Part shown: piece by piece, positions 6,135 through 26,713 of the stretch
Layout: each line of letters opens with the position of its first letter
How positions within the stretch are numbered: the stretch's first letter is position 1
Origin: a virus
Virus record (IMG/VR): IMGVR_UViG_3300009415_000004
Span: 1-30,479 of that record
Reading direction: 5' to 3' (one strand)
Length of the DNA: 30,479 nucleotides
Notes under the pieces: generated by a model
The model's input: the letters and a program-made list of their open reading frames with translations, nothing else
What the model was told of the DNA's origin: nothing
Database searches by the model: none
Translations under genes and position numbers: made by a program

Positions 6135-6875
6135 ATGGACCTAGAGAAACTACTTGCATTGCTCGCAGAAGAGCACCGCGAAGCCGCCAAGGCATTCATC
6201 CAAGGTCTGATCGACAAGGTGGACAACCTATCCACCGAAATCACAGAGCTTGAGGGCAAGGTCGCCAACCCAGAGCTGCAGGGCAAACTCGATGACGCGA
6301 TCGTTAAGCGCGACGCGGCAAAGTCACAGCTGAAGATCGTGCGTGACGCGCTGGGCCTGCCTGCTGACAAGGAAGTAACCAATGAGCTCGTTACCGAGCA
6401 CATGAAAGACGCATCAAAAGGCGATGCCGTGAAAGATCAGCGGATCCGGACTCTGGAGGCTGATATCGCTGGACTGGAAACAACAGTCGACACTTTGAAA
6501 ACTGAAAAAGCCGCGGTTGAGCAAGAGCGTGACCAGGTATCCGAGGAAACCAAGTTCATCCGTGTTTTTACTGAAAAGATGCCATCGTTCAAGGCAGCGT
6601 CACCCATTGCTCGAAATGACATCGAGCGACTACTGCGCGTTGACGCCGTCCTGGAAGAGGGTGAGATACTTTACAAGGGTAAGGACGGCAGTTACATCCG
6701 CGTGAAAGGCGAGAAGCTGGACATGGCGGGCAAGCTGGAGCAGATACAAGGCAACCCGGACTACGGTTACCTGTTTGAATCCAAGGCATCCGGCGGCTCT
6801 GGTAGTGGCAATGGCGGCAGCGGCGGGAATGTGTCGAAGTTTGAGCAGCGCAAGCGTGCAGCTGGTCTGGCCTGA
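6135..6875 (+). CDS. Scaffold-like head protein
   Basis: 246 residues, AGAGG-type ribosome site just upstream. Residues 25-140 are strongly charged helical heptads (LSTEITELEGKV, IAGLETTVDTLKTEKAAVEQ), followed by a compact domain (FTEKMPSFKAASPIARNDIERLL), then a glycine/serine linker (SGGSGSGNGGSGG) and a short basic end (FEQRKRAAGLA). A coiled coil with a basic C-terminal tail just before the capsid gene is the usual architecture of a scaffolding protein, whose tail binds the capsid subunit inside the procapsid. No protease motif is seen, so it may be released rather than self-cleaved. Confidence 0.65.
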   Translation: MDLEKLLALLAEEHREAAKAFIQGLIDKVDNLSTEITELEGKVANPELQGKLDDAIVKRDAAKSQLKIVRDALGLPADKEVTNELVTEHMKDASKGDAVKDQRIRTLEADIAGLETTVDTLKTEKAAVEQERDQVSEETKFIRVFTEKMPSFKAASPIARNDIERLLRVDAVLEEGEILYKGKDGSYIRVKGEKLDMAGKLEQIQGNPDYGYLFESKASGGSGSGNGGSGGNVSKFEQRKRAAGLA

Positions 6876-6883
6876 TTTAGCGG

Positions 6884-6889
6884 TATAAT
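6884..6889 (+). promoter_or_regulatory. TATAAT -10-like box
   Basis: A perfect TATAAT lies just after the scaffold gene. The hexamer 17 bases upstream (GCTGGT) is a poor -35 box, and there is no extended TGn element, so this is a weak host-type promoter at best, or one that needs an activator. It would supply transcripts for the helix-turn-helix gene and the capsid gene. Confidence 0.3.
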
Positions 6890-6895
6890 AGACGC

Positions 6896-6926
6896 CTCAC
6901 CACCAAGTTTGCAGCGAGGTGGTGAG
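6896..6926 (+). other. Stem-loop upstream of the HTH gene
   Basis: CTCACCACC (6896-6904) pairs perfectly with GGTGGTGAG (6918-6926) around a 13-base loop. No T tract follows, so it is unlikely to end transcription by itself. It lies between the scaffold stop and the helix-turn-helix gene, the same arrangement as the stem-loop before the HNH gene at 315. Confidence 0.6.
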
Positions 6927-6955
6927 ACTAACATCCATTAACTGAGACTTAACAG

Positions 6956-7363
6956 ATGCGTGACGAGAAAGTAGCACAAAGGTATTGCGATGGAACGATG
7001 AATCTTGGAGAAGACTGTGGTTCTTCAAAATTAACCGAGTGCGAGGTGCGCATGATTCACAAGGAGCGCGCATCTGGGAAGGCTGCGAAAGAAATCGCAA
7101 AAAGATATCTCACAACAACGGCAAATGTAAACCGCATTGCAACTGGCAGTGCTTGGAAGCACTTAGGACTTGAACCCATAAAGCTGAAGAGGGCTTGCGG
7201 ACTGGCAGCGAAACGAGTCAGCGTCGGGGGCAGGGTATTTGAAAGTGTGAAAGCCGCGGGCGCCCATTATGACTTATCTCCTGGCACTATCTCCAGCTGG
7301 GTGCACGGTTGCAAAAAGCATGGCAAATGGATTCCGCCAAAAGACGATTGCTTCTTTGTTTGA
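6956..7363 (+). CDS. Helix-turn-helix protein, probable HNH homing-gene remnant
   Basis: 135 residues. The first recognisable part (GEDCGSSKLTECEVRMIH, then a helix-turn-helix ending ATGSAWKHL) is the DNA-binding module usually placed after the nuclease domain in phage HNH homing endonucleases. The second part (VSVGGRVFESVKAAGAHY, then LSPGTISSWV) is a NUMOD1/IENR1-type module. No HNH or GIY-YIG nuclease residues are present, so this looks like a homing gene that lost its nuclease, or a regulator built from its parts. Start uncertain: ATG at 6956 or at 6998 (the homology begins near the latter); neither has a good ribosome site. It separates scaffold and capsid genes, which are normally adjacent. 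Confidence 0.65.
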   Translation: MRDEKVAQRYCDGTMNLGEDCGSSKLTECEVRMIHKERASGKAAKEIAKRYLTTTANVNRIATGSAWKHLGLEPIKLKRACGLAAKRVSVGGRVFESVKAAGAHYDLSPGTISSWVHGCKKHGKWIPPKDDCFFV

Positions 7364-7373
7364 TTAATTGTCG

Positions 7374-7395
7374 CGGCTGTAATTCTATACAGCCG
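7374..7395 (+). other. Stem-loop after the HTH gene
   Basis: CGGCTGT (7374-7380) pairs with ACAGCCG (7389-7395) around an 8-base loop, ten bases after the HTH stop. The following bases are only mildly T-rich, so it may be a weak terminator or an mRNA-end-stabilising hairpin. Confidence 0.5.
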
Positions 7396-7400
7396 TGCAG

Positions 7401-7429
7401 TTGCACTTTATTCAAAAGAGTAGTAGCAT
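7401..7429 (+). promoter_or_regulatory. Weak promoter candidate for the capsid gene
   Basis: TTGCAC (7401-7406), a 17-base gap and TAGCAT (7424-7429) have the layout of a sigma70-type promoter but match the consensus only at three and four of six positions. If used, transcripts would begin just before the tandem hairpins at 7443-7483. Low confidence. Confidence 0.2.
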
Positions 7430-7442
7430 TTCTAAAACTTGC

Positions 7443-7483
7443 TTCACTGTGGATTCAGTGAGCCGATACGTGGATTCGTGTTG
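7443..7483 (+). promoter_or_regulatory. Tandem GGA-loop hairpins in the capsid-gene leader
   Basis: Two adjacent hairpins, each of 20 bases, are separated by one base. Hairpin A pairs 7443-7449 with 7456-7462 (six Watson-Crick pairs plus one G-U). Hairpin B pairs 7464-7470 with 7477-7483 (five Watson-Crick plus two G-U). Both have the same six-base loop, TGGATT (7450-7455 and 7471-7476), while outer stem sequences differ, which argues for selection on structure plus loop. GGA in a hairpin loop is the core recognition element of CsrA/RsmA proteins, and this phage encodes a CsrA-like protein (26387-26713). They lie 45 bases before the capsid start. A role as translational operator or stability element is an inference. 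Confidence 0.6.
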
Positions 7484-7527
7484 AATGTTTAACAACTTTC
7501 ATCAATCTACTATCGGAGGCTCGCCTA

Positions 7528-8538
7528 ATGGCTGCCATCACTATTGCGGATATTATCCGCCACGACCTGATTACCGCAGGCGATATACTAGAGTCCGCTG
7601 AAAAACAGTCGTTTGTCAGCTCTGGCATCTTTGGCACTGATGCCGAAATCTCCGCCACCATCTCCGGAATGAAGAAAGGCACGACTGTTGAAGTCGACTA
7701 TCTTGTGGAGCCGGAATTTTTAGAACCTTCATATGGGGATGACAGCGATACTGACATAATTCCTCAGGGCATTTCAGAGGAAATGTTCCGCGCTGCCGTC
7801 ATATTCCCCAACGTAGCGTTCGCTGAAAAATCCATTGTCAAGGTATTGCGTGCTCACGCCAATGAGAATGATGGCCTTGAAGCGCTCATTTCATACTTGT
7901 CCAAGTACTGGGATAAATTCAAGCAACGCCAAGCGTTCGCCATGCTCCAGGGCATGATTGCGGATAACAAGGCCAACGACTCTGGCGACCTGATCGAAAC
8001 AATCGCGACGGCGTTTGACTTTGACTCAGCGGTTGATGCACTGGCCAAGCGTGGCGACTCCATGATTGATGAGATGAACCACGCGTTCATGAACTCAAAG
8101 GTCTATGCAGCGCGTGTGAAGTCCGGCCAGATCGAGATCGTGAAGGAAGAAGACACCGGCCTGAATATCTCAACATGGAACGGTATGCGCGTCCACGTTG
8201 ATGACATTCTCGCACCGGTCGATGTTGCTGGCACTATGGTATCGACCACTGTGTTCGCCATGTCCGGCATGTTCGTTGAGGCCATGATCGACATGAACGC
8301 CAATGGTATGCAGTCGCTTGAGTACGACCGTGACGCAAAGAAGGGCCACGGTGCTGGTCTGACTGAGGTAATCAGTCGTGTCGGTGGCCTGTGGCATCCG
8401 TCTGGCTGGGATTACACCAAAGCCTCTCAGGCTGGCGTGTCTCGCAACCTGGCCGAAACCGCACTACCTGCAAACTGGGATCGGAAGGTCGCAGCCAAGC
8501 AGAGCCCGTTTGTTGCTGTTGAATCAGTAGAGGGCTAA
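7528..8538 (+). CDS. Major capsid protein
   Basis: 336 residues, with GGAGG at about 7515-7519 as a strong ribosome site. Position after a scaffold-like gene, length, and features such as an N-terminal DIIRHDLITAGD helix, a long spine-like helix region (LISYLSKYWDKFKQRQAF), a Ser/Met-rich central fold (HAFMNSKVYAARV) and C-terminal GLWHPSGWDY fit the phage coat protein group with an HK97-type fold; I cannot assign the exact family. It forms the icosahedral shell. Its 164-base leader holds three hairpins, unusual among these tightly packed genes, and implies separate control of this most abundant product. Confidence 0.85.
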   Translation: MAAITIADIIRHDLITAGDILESAEKQSFVSSGIFGTDAEISATISGMKKGTTVEVDYLVEPEFLEPSYGDDSDTDIIPQGISEEMFRAAVIFPNVAFAEKSIVKVLRAHANENDGLEALISYLSKYWDKFKQRQAFAMLQGMIADNKANDSGDLIETIATAFDFDSAVDALAKRGDSMIDEMNHAFMNSKVYAARVKSGQIEIVKEEDTGLNISTWNGMRVHVDDILAPVDVAGTMVSTTVFAMSGMFVEAMIDMNANGMQSLEYDRDAKKGHGAGLTEVISRVGGLWHPSGWDYTKASQAGVSRNLAETALPANWDRKVAAKQSPFVAVESVEG

Positions 8539-11092: not shown

Positions 11093-11563
11093 ATGGCTTA
11101 TGTAAAGAACAAAAAGACGCTGCTGCACATCGGCTCGGGCACACCAGCTACCGAAGATCTGGCCGGGGCCGAGGCGGTAGCAACTACCAGCTTCGAGTGC
11201 CTGATCGAATCAATGGACGGTCTTGAGCTGATGCGCGGGACTATCGATGACCCGCAAGTTTATTGCGATGACAACACAGCGATCAAGCAGCGTGATACCG
11301 ATCAGCTGGAGGTCAGCAATCTGGTCATCACAGGTCTTGTCGATGATGAGGCAGCCAACGGCTATGACGCGTTGATCGCGCTGGCAAACACCATGCTGGT
11401 CGCAGACACGCCGGGAGTCCTGGTTATCACAGAACCCAACGGCACTGACAAGCTGTGGTGCAAGATGAAGCTCGTGTCAGCTGCCAAGATGCGTGGCGCA
11501 CCGCAAGACAAGCAGAAGTTCAAGATCGAGATGATTGCCAAAACTCTGCCGGTTGACGCCTAA
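11093..11563 (+). CDS. Major tail tube protein
   Basis: 156 residues with a strong GGAGGG ribosome site. It is followed by the G/GT chaperone pair and tape measure, the universal order for the major tail protein of long-tailed phages. The strand-rich sequence, with an N-terminal strand (KKTLLHIGSG), a central domain (DQLEVSNLVITGL) and a C-terminal strand (KQKFKIEMIAKTL), fits a tube subunit that stacks in hexameric rings. No sheath gene precedes it, consistent with a non-contractile tail. Confidence 0.85.
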   Translation: MAYVKNKKTLLHIGSGTPATEDLAGAEAVATTSFECLIESMDGLELMRGTIDDPQVYCDDNTAIKQRDTDQLEVSNLVITGLVDDEAANGYDALIALANTMLVADTPGVLVITEPNGTDKLWCKMKLVSAAKMRGAPQDKQKFKIEMIAKTLPVDA

Positions 11564-11630: not shown

Positions 11631-11659
11631 GAGGGGAGTAATTACCCCTCGATCCTTTT
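11631..11659 (+). terminator. Possible intrinsic terminator after the tail tube gene
   Basis: GAGGGG (11631-11636) pairs with CCCCTC (11645-11650) around an 8-base loop, followed by GATCC and four Ts (11656-11659). The T tract is short and offset, so it is probably partial: it would let the tube gene be expressed above the chaperone and tape-measure genes. It lies in the 116-base gap between the tube and chaperone genes, in which no gene is seen. Confidence 0.45.
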
Positions 11660-11679: not shown

Positions 11680-12204
11680 ATGGGCTTTGGACGATACAAA
11701 AACACTAAATCAGCCGACCTTGTTCATAGAATCGAGCTTTTTGACTTCGCTACCGGTGACCCGGCAATGGCCAACGGCCGCAGGCAGCACATCACTATTC
11801 GCGGCGAGAAGTCGCGTGCTTATCAGAGCGCCGTGGAGCAAGAAACCGCGCAGGCCAAACGCAAGAACAAGGGCGCGGCTGATTTCACGTTCAAGGAGAG
11901 CGTCAGTGTGCTTGCTCGGCGACTGTCTAGTATTGTTGTCAGCGCCTACGTGGACGCGGGCGATGACGAGCCTGACATCATTGAGTTTGACGATATCGAC
12001 GCACTGCCTGATGTGGATCGTGAAAACGAGAAGCACCGGCTTCGCAATTTGTTTACCGAGGTTTCGGATCTCGCTGTTGTCGTCAACAATGAGGTGGTGA
12101 AAAGCGCAAATTTTTTGCCGGGGCAAGGGCAGACCTTATCCAGTTTGTTGAACAGCAAGAGTGGTACCGAGGAAGCCCCGGAGAAGGAGACGCAACCCGA
12201 TTAG
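11680..12204 (+). CDS. Tail assembly chaperone, short form (G-type)
   Basis: 174 residues. Sits between the major tail protein and tape measure, as lambda G does. Sequence: a strand start (VHRIELFDFATGDP), the charged helix EKSRAYQSAVEQETAQAKRKNK, a second helix (VSVLARRLSSIVVSAYV), and an acidic end. The role is to coat the tape measure during tail assembly; it is not kept in the virion. Within this gene a slippery run (12108-12117) allows a -1 shift into the downstream frame, making the longer GT form. Confidence 0.85.
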   Translation: MGFGRYKNTKSADLVHRIELFDFATGDPAMANGRRQHITIRGEKSRAYQSAVEQETAQAKRKNKGAADFTFKESVSVLARRLSSIVVSAYVDAGDDEPDIIEFDDIDALPDVDRENEKHRLRNLFTEVSDLAVVVNNEVVKSANFLPGQGQTLSSLLNSKSGTEEAPEKETQPD

Positions 12205-26067: not shown

Positions 26068-26390
26068 GAAAACCCCCTCCGGTATTCACCAGTCAACCGC
26101 GAGGCGTCAGCTTTTGACAGCGGCATCAACGCACGAACACCATGCGGACACGTTAGCATTGCATCATTCGCAGCGCCGAACAGCCTGCACATGAATGGGC
26201 GGTCATCGTAAACAGTGCAGCCATTTTCATAGAACGCGCAGGTTGTTGTGTTGGGCTTTGTTGGTGTCATGGTTCCGGATATACCAAGTGCTCTTGCTTC
26301 GACAGGGGACACAGGCACAGGACCGCAGCAGGCGTTGCAACCAGCCTTGCATGATGTTGTTGCGGGGATTCTGGCGTATAAGTGATTCAC
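26064..26390 (-). CDS. YkgJ-type cysteine-cluster protein
   Basis: 108 residues from a GTG at 26390, which overlaps the CsrA-like stop (GTGA) and has GAGGAG seven bases upstream. Cys14, Cys18, Cys21 and Cys22 form C-x3-C-x2-C-C; further cysteines in TTTCAFYENGCTVYDDRPFMC and TCPHG complete the pattern of YkgJ-like zinc or iron-sulfur cluster proteins (CxxCxxCC family). The family is widespread, mostly uncharacterised, and found in a number of phages. A metal cofactor is inferred; biochemical role unknown. Confidence 0.8.
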   Translation of the reverse strand: MNHLYARIPATTSCKAGCNACCGPVPVSPVEARALGISGTMTPTKPNTTTCAFYENGCTVYDDRPFMCRLFGAANDAMLTCPHGVRALMPLSKADASRLTGEYRRGFS

Positions 26391-26713
26391 GCCAAAACTC
26401 CTCTTAAAACATCCTCAACACTGCGCTCCTCTTCACCCCGCGAGATCACAACATCGGCCGGAGCATTAACAATAAACCGCACTTTCATTCGAGCGTATCC
26501 CGCCGCTCGAATATCAATACTCACATCATCACCAACCCCTATCGTCGTACCAATCTCCAGAGCAGAGCGCCGCATGAATACTAAGGGTGCGTCTGGATTA
26601 TCCTGATGGCGGCAAACCAGCTCCATGCCTTCGCGTGTCAGCGTGATGCGACGACGATCTGGGTAGTCAAGCATGATCTGCTCGTCGTCGCGTCTGTCTA
26701 TGTGTAATCCCAT
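26387..26713 (-). CDS. Enlarged CsrA/RsmA-like RNA-binding protein
   Basis: 108 residues. Residues 59-96 align with CsrA: GVGDDVSIDIRAAG (strand 2), MKVRFIVNAP (strand 3) and ADVVISRGEEE (strand 4), with the signature VRxxVNAPxxVxVxR and the RNA-contacting Arg in the final strand (Arg92). The first CsrA strand (usual LILTRRxGExLMI) is matched by LHIDRRDDEQIML at 3-15, and less well by ITLTREGMELV at 23-33, so about 25-43 residues are inserted between strands 1 and 2. CsrA dimers bind GGA in hairpin loops of mRNA leaders and control translation. The gene lies in the early unit; its start overlaps the stop of the coiled-coil gene by one base. Whether the enlarged form still dimerises is unknown. 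Confidence 0.7.
   Translation of the reverse strand: MGLHIDRRDDEQIMLDYPDRRRITLTREGMELVCRHQDNPDAPLVFMRRSALEIGTTIGVGDDVSIDIRAAGYARMKVRFIVNAPADVVISRGEEERSVEDVLRGVLA

Follow-up and report, generated by a model that had tools for sequence, protein, structure and literature searches.

Leaders that sequester the ribosome binding site are known in phages from T4 genes e, soc and 49, from I-TevI, and from Aeh1 mobE (PMC3014915, PMC2988022). Control by hiding of the Shine-Dalgarno (SD) sequence is of an already known kind, and the capsid leader described here is a predicted variant of it that offers a cheap and sharp test case. In the leader of E. coli ymdA, CsrA binds one GGA upstream and a second one, partly paired, inside the SD-sequestering hairpin, and opens this hairpin, leading to activation (PMC7492729). 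The high-affinity hexaloop for CsrA is ANGGAX (PMC4005645). CsrA ligands selected by SELEX mostly have 4 contiguous pairs or fewer and always keep ACA before GGA, and a CsrA dimer bridges sites 10-63 nt apart (PMC7652899). Phages themselves carry CsrA genes (PMC7366521).

The DNA analysed is a viral record of 30,479 nt (IMGVR_UViG_3300009415_000004), the whole of which is called the window below. Between the scaffold and capsid genes it contains the following features.

6956 to 7363, + strand: gene for a homing-endonuclease-like DNA-binding protein (weak PHROG HNH/homing endonuclease matches, weak Pfam I-TevI_DNA-bd match, tblastn matches to HNH endonucleases).
7365 to 7403, + strand: strong separate hairpin in the predicted fold, just 3' of the stop of the upstream gene, with arms near GCGGCTGTA and TACAGCCGT and no U-tract.
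7401 to 7429, + strand: weak candidate for a promoter of sigma-70 type, upstream of hairpin 1, with TTGCAC (7401-7406), 17-nt spacer, TAGCAT (7424-7429); top 0.3% of positions by a crude score, which is not functional evidence.
7443 to 7462, + strand: hairpin 1, 7-bp stem, loop TGGATT at 7450-7455; paired with a probability of about 1.0 when the full leader is folded.
7464 to 7483, + strand: hairpin 2, 7-bp stem with two G-U pairs, loop TGGATT at 7471-7476; predicted to form only without the SD-sequestering helix.
7528 to 8538, + strand: major capsid (head) protein gene, ATG at 7528 (PHROG 247 major head protein, E 1.8e-42; 579 phage records by tblastn).

The gap between scaffold and capsid genes, which holds the endonuclease-like gene and the leader, is 652 nt here and 2-30 nt in most homologues. 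Two more genes of homing-endonuclease type are found on the + strand, at 222-1007 and 1256-1858, making three such genes in 30 kb: one HNH, one GIY-YIG, and one with DNA-binding repeats only and no visible nuclease domain. Because of this gap and these genes, the leader may have arrived together with an insertion or have adapted to one. Coupling of capsid translation to that of the upstream gene was rejected, as the stop of the latter is 164 nt away. A leader peptide was rejected as well: one reading frame runs through both repeats (VDSVSRYVDSC from GTG 7449), but no open reading frame with an ATG and an SD covers the hairpins. On the + strand of the leader no intrinsic terminator was found, and Rfam gave no match in the window at the gathering threshold and none up to E 10 in 6850-7560.

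The two hairpins had been reported in a preliminary description of this DNA as tandem 7-pair structures with the same loop, a one-base spacer and differing stems that include G-U pairs, and they are present exactly so at 7443-7483. Hairpin 1 (TTCACTG-TGGATT-CAGTGAG, -7.2 kcal/mol, one G-U pair) and hairpin 2 (CGATACG-TGGATT-CGTGTTG, -5.9 kcal/mol) are separated by C7463 and share only the loop-closing G-C pair, the stems differing at 6 of 7 positions. Nowhere else on the + strand of the window do two 7-bp hairpins with the same loop stand in tandem, and such a pair was present in one of 300 simulated windows (first-order Markov, dinucleotide make-up as in the window). No further TGGATT-loop hairpin with a stem of at least 5 bp exists on either strand of the window. 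The octamer GTGGATTC occurs in 5 copies on both strands together, versus 0.89 expected; the two leader copies are spaced by exactly 21 bp, and the other three (20758 +, 26804 -, 28024 -) lie inside genes, none of them in a TGGATT-loop hairpin. That the loop stays the same while the stems change is an observation made inside one leader only.

Folding of bases 7360-7530, as the preliminary description had proposed, gave a structure of -53.2 kcal/mol (z = -4.83) in which hairpin 1 is formed and hairpin 2 is not. In the full leader, the probability is about 1.0 for hairpin 1 but 0.0 for hairpin 2, whose 5' arm and loop pair instead with a segment further downstream. Three more features are needed to describe this second fold.

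7463 to 7476, + strand: 5' arm of the SD-sequestering helix predicted by folding, CCGATA-c-GTGGATT, made of the bases of the hairpin 2 5' arm and loop.
7504 to 7516, + strand: 3' arm of the same predicted helix, AATCTACTATCGG, which includes the first GG of the SD.
7515 to 7519, + strand: SD of the capsid gene, GGAGG (sequence, pair probabilities).

The helix has 13 bp and one bulged C, and hides the first two bases of the SD; the 3' remainder of the SD is paired with 7534-7536, in the start of the coding sequence, as judged by pair probabilities. When the upstream sequence was randomised, the SD-proximal segment was paired as strongly in 15 of 5000 cases. That the second hairpin shares its bases with the anti-SD helix is the main point missed by the preliminary description, and it makes the observation more interesting than it first appeared.

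Both folds, their energies and their order of formation were computed. With the 3' end of the transcript advanced stepwise, the two hairpins are the lowest-energy fold up to about 7505, and the SD-hiding helix displaces hairpin 2 between 7508 and 7516. In the full leader the helix is favoured over hairpin 2 by a ΔΔG of about 8 kcal/mol, in a thermodynamic calculation that leaves out ribosomes, proteins and transcription speed. Thus the hairpins are predicted to form first and the helix second, unless the hairpins are held or a ribosome arrives early. Side by side, hairpins 1 and 2 are predicted only for transcripts whose 3' end lies before about 7508, or where something holds them.

The degree of structure and the occlusion of the start are both unusual. 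None of 200 shuffles of the 7360-7530 leader was as stable, and in a survey of 506 segments of 160 bases on the + strand, 7441-7600 ranked first for structure (z = -5.79; mean -0.31, sd 1.20). The opening energy of the capsid ribosome binding site, 17.9 kcal/mol, is the highest of the 38 gene starts in the window. This top rank was kept when 90-160 nt upstream were included and when folding was done at 25 °C; with 60 nt upstream, too few to contain the 5' arm, the start dropped to rank 4. It is also the least accessible in a set of 55 distinct capsid-gene starts, the other 54, from homologues, averaging 5.2 kcal/mol. When 7443-7483 was held from pairing elsewhere, the opening energy decreased from 18.4 to 11.6 kcal/mol. 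For transcripts starting at 7477 or later it was 11.6 to 12.2 kcal/mol, versus about 18. In both situations the cost is still slightly above the window median (about 9.6 kcal/mol). Even leaving CsrA aside, the case is unusual, in that the most hidden start in the phage belongs to the gene whose product is expected to be required in the largest amount.

We propose that the capsid leader is a two-state translational switch acting in cis, to which we give a probability of roughly 0.4: with the helix, translation would be off, with the tandem hairpins it would be on, and a factor binding the loops would open the ribosome binding site. In the stable state, 7463-7476 would pair with 7504-7516 and a further helix would form within 7518-7536, so that the SD would be hidden and the capsid gene poorly translated. 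In the state formed first during transcription, hairpin 2 would be made from the same bases, next to hairpin 1, and would leave the SD-proximal segment free. A factor recognising the repeated UGGAUU loops and holding both hairpins would then keep the ribosome site open and raise capsid synthesis; the phage CsrA-like protein described below, or a host CsrA/RsmA, would be candidates. The function in the cell, the binding of the loops by a protein and the activating direction of the effect are what we infer. On the favourable side we count the structure of the leader, the occlusion of the start, the clear alternative fold and the ymdA precedent. Against the switch we count that the collections searched gave no related leader apart from identical records, the distant homologues, which are without such a leader, and the opening cost of 11.6 kcal/mol that persists even with the hairpins held; the capsid gene needs a high output, and a stable off state therefore demands efficient release.

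As in ymdA, one GGA is found just upstream and one in the SD-hiding structure, and binding at the two sites would open the leader. Unlike in ymdA, each GGA can here be presented by a separate 7-bp hairpin, both with the loop UGGAUU, and the gene concerned is a phage capsid gene, the arrangement being predicted from sequence. The likeness to T4 e, soc, 49 and I-TevI and to Aeh1 mobE is in a phage SD hidden by an upstream arm, and in the homing endonuclease context. The arm here differs in belonging to tandem hairpins with a repeated loop, and no convincing late promoter is found inside it. T4 e, moreover, has related leaders in its relatives, whereas none was found for the leader of the window.

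These T4 cases provide the main rival to the switch, one that we consider unlikely while giving it a serious hearing. Read-through RNA would carry the 5' arm and have its SD hidden, late RNA starting after about 7476 would be translated, and that the two loops are identical would be a coincidence. Such an arrangement is established for T4 late genes (PMC3014915) and for homing endonucleases (PMC2988022), a homing-endonuclease-like gene is located just upstream of the leader, and a transcript from 7477 has an opening energy of 12.2 kcal/mol versus about 18. However, the arm region holds a single promoter-like match, a weak -10 at 7481 that ranks in the top 1% of positions when compared with a consensus that may not be that of the phage's late promoter; better candidates at 7378 and 7424 are upstream of the arm and would retain it; and the repeated loop is left unexplained.

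Rather than being a switch of either kind, it could be that the leader came in, or remained behind, when the endonuclease-like gene was inserted, and that the hairpins are due to chance or are marks of mRNA ends or processing. The long gap with its endonuclease-like gene speaks for such an origin, and the loop match and the anti-SD helix, each an event of about 0.3%, are not impossible among the many features read. We judge this account unlikely, given that the leader is at the same time the most extreme segment of the phage for structure and its most extreme start for occlusion, and that the same bases are used in both folds.

Within the switch reading, the nature of a loop-binding factor is a separate question. 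The preliminary description had pointed to GGA, the CsrA/RsmA core, in both loops, and to a CsrA-like gene of the phage.

26387 to 26713, - strand: gene for a divergent CsrA-like protein, the candidate trans-acting factor of the preliminary description (Pfam CsrA E 2.9e-4; NCBIfam CsrA E 2e-4; RsmE structure 2jpp E 4e-4).

The product has 108 aa. It scored 21.2 bits against Pfam CsrA, for a cut-off of 27 (19.4 of 27 in the whole-record search), and 21.3 of 73 against NCBIfam CsrA, far below the cut-off. Its VRFIVNAPADVVISRGEE aligns with VRIGINAPKDVAVHREEI of RsmE 2jpp, and the aligned stretch keeps the core motif V-R-x-x-V-N-A-P ... R, in the form VR..VNAP..V..R, including the arginine 44 position. 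Arginine 44 is an RNA-contacting residue. A single-sequence structure model was too poor for use (pLDDT 41), and no relatives of the protein were found for an alignment. By sequence, the product is likely, but not proven, to be a divergent CsrA. It has an N-terminal extension of about 45 residues which, by eye, resembles the start of CsrA (LHIDRRDDEQIML), so that the protein may be two CsrA units fused in one chain. As in phage-borne CsrA (PMC7366521; VvAW1), the gene is in the early replication/recombination region near an SSB gene, the csrA gene of Vibrio phage VvAW1 also being near SSB; it departs from these by the size of its product, the extension and the sub-cut-off scores.

On the RNA side, GGA is indeed in both loops, in six-base loops as in Csr/Rsm binding hairpins, and the two motifs, at 7451 and 7472, are 21 nt apart, inside the range that a CsrA dimer bridges. 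The loop sequence fits less well: UGGAUU is not ANGGAX, GGA being at loop positions 2-4, with no A two bases ahead of it and no ACA. The stems, of 7 bp, are longer than in the known binding hairpins (PMC4005645), and the second site is occluded. In the stable fold, GGA-1 is unpaired (1.0) and GGA-2 fully paired (0.0 unpaired); the second site of ymdA is in part paired too. CsrA is thus a possible but weak candidate, by sequence, as ligand of the leader loops. The operator controlling capsid synthesis put forward in the preliminary description is well supported as a prediction in so far as it is an RNA element, by the structured leader, the SD in a helix and the alternative fold; its assignment to CsrA is not established.

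Since holding the hairpins frees the SD, and given the ymdA precedent, activation would be likelier than the usual repression if CsrA acts here. It is doubtful that the divergent CsrA-like protein of the phage activates translation of its own capsid gene by holding the tandem hairpins and opening the SD-hiding helix in a ymdA-like manner; were it so, a virus would time the production of its shell by such a switch. A capsid leader with two GGA hairpins competing with an SD-hiding helix is a concrete, cheaply testable candidate target of a phage csrA.

The canonical version of the operator originally proposed for this leader, with the two GGA loops bridged by a phage or host CsrA/RsmA dimer and capsid translation thereby blocked, appears improbable. 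The spacing of the two loops, within the bridging range (PMC7652899), the CsrA-like protein, and the matches to E. coli CsrA in 85 phage records (see also PMC7366521) are in line with it. Besides the departure from ANGGAX (PMC4005645), the stems longer than in most SELEX ligands and the paired GGA-2, it has against it that the loops are about 40-65 nt upstream of the SD; we rank repression lower because holding both hairpins would free the SD, not block it. In addition, the csrA-bearing phages VvAW1, PP9W and D279 lack such a leader: their capsid genes, annotated or inferred from position, have leaders of 14-24 nt by annotation, with ordinary opening energies and nothing comparable. That the 21-bp spaced GTGGATTC repeats, two helical turns apart, are instead DNA operator sites, for example for the helix-turn-helix product of the upstream gene, is hardly credible, for although that gene encodes a DNA-binding, I-TevI-like protein and I-TevI autoregulates by operator binding (PMC2988022), the repeats are downstream, not upstream, of it, and hairpin 2 is not a clean inverted repeat as DNA because it needs two G-U pairs.

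Related leaders were searched for with the capsid, terminase, portal and endonuclease-like proteins against viral contigs, with the capsid and terminase against bacterial genomes, and with the DNA against phages; none but identical records was obtained, in single-protein scans that rely on exact 8-residue matches and from which relatives of middling identity could escape. Record IMGVR_UViG_3300027262_000005 is identical to the window where the two overlap. The pattern GTGGATTC-N13-GTGGATTC had 50 DNA matches, with both hairpins only in the identical record. By these comparisons the phage is a singleton within the searched collections. The nearest other capsid proteins are about 24-32% identical, and their genes have no TGGATT hairpins and no such leader; absence from phages so distant neither confirms nor refutes the element. 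In one distant capsid homologue (L079), around position 2353, the gap is about 250 nt and a hairpin (GCTCCGGTC...GACaGGAGC) hides the SD. With an opening energy of 15.8 kcal/mol and a simple SD hairpin without tandem repeats, this may be a capsid start that became hidden independently.

Some minor signals were also noted on the + strand. The 9-mer TTTAACAAC is present at 7488 and at 11657, in both cases upstream of a gene that follows a long gap; it could be a shared late-gene signal, or chance. Between the genes ending at 11563 and starting at 11680, an intrinsic-terminator-like hairpin, GAGGGGAGTAATTACCCCTC then GATCCTTTT, is located at 11631-11659. At 6884-6925, between the scaffold and endonuclease-like genes, a perfect TATAAT is followed by a 9-bp hairpin (CTCACCACC/GGTGGTGAG), possibly a promoter and the 5' end of a transcript.
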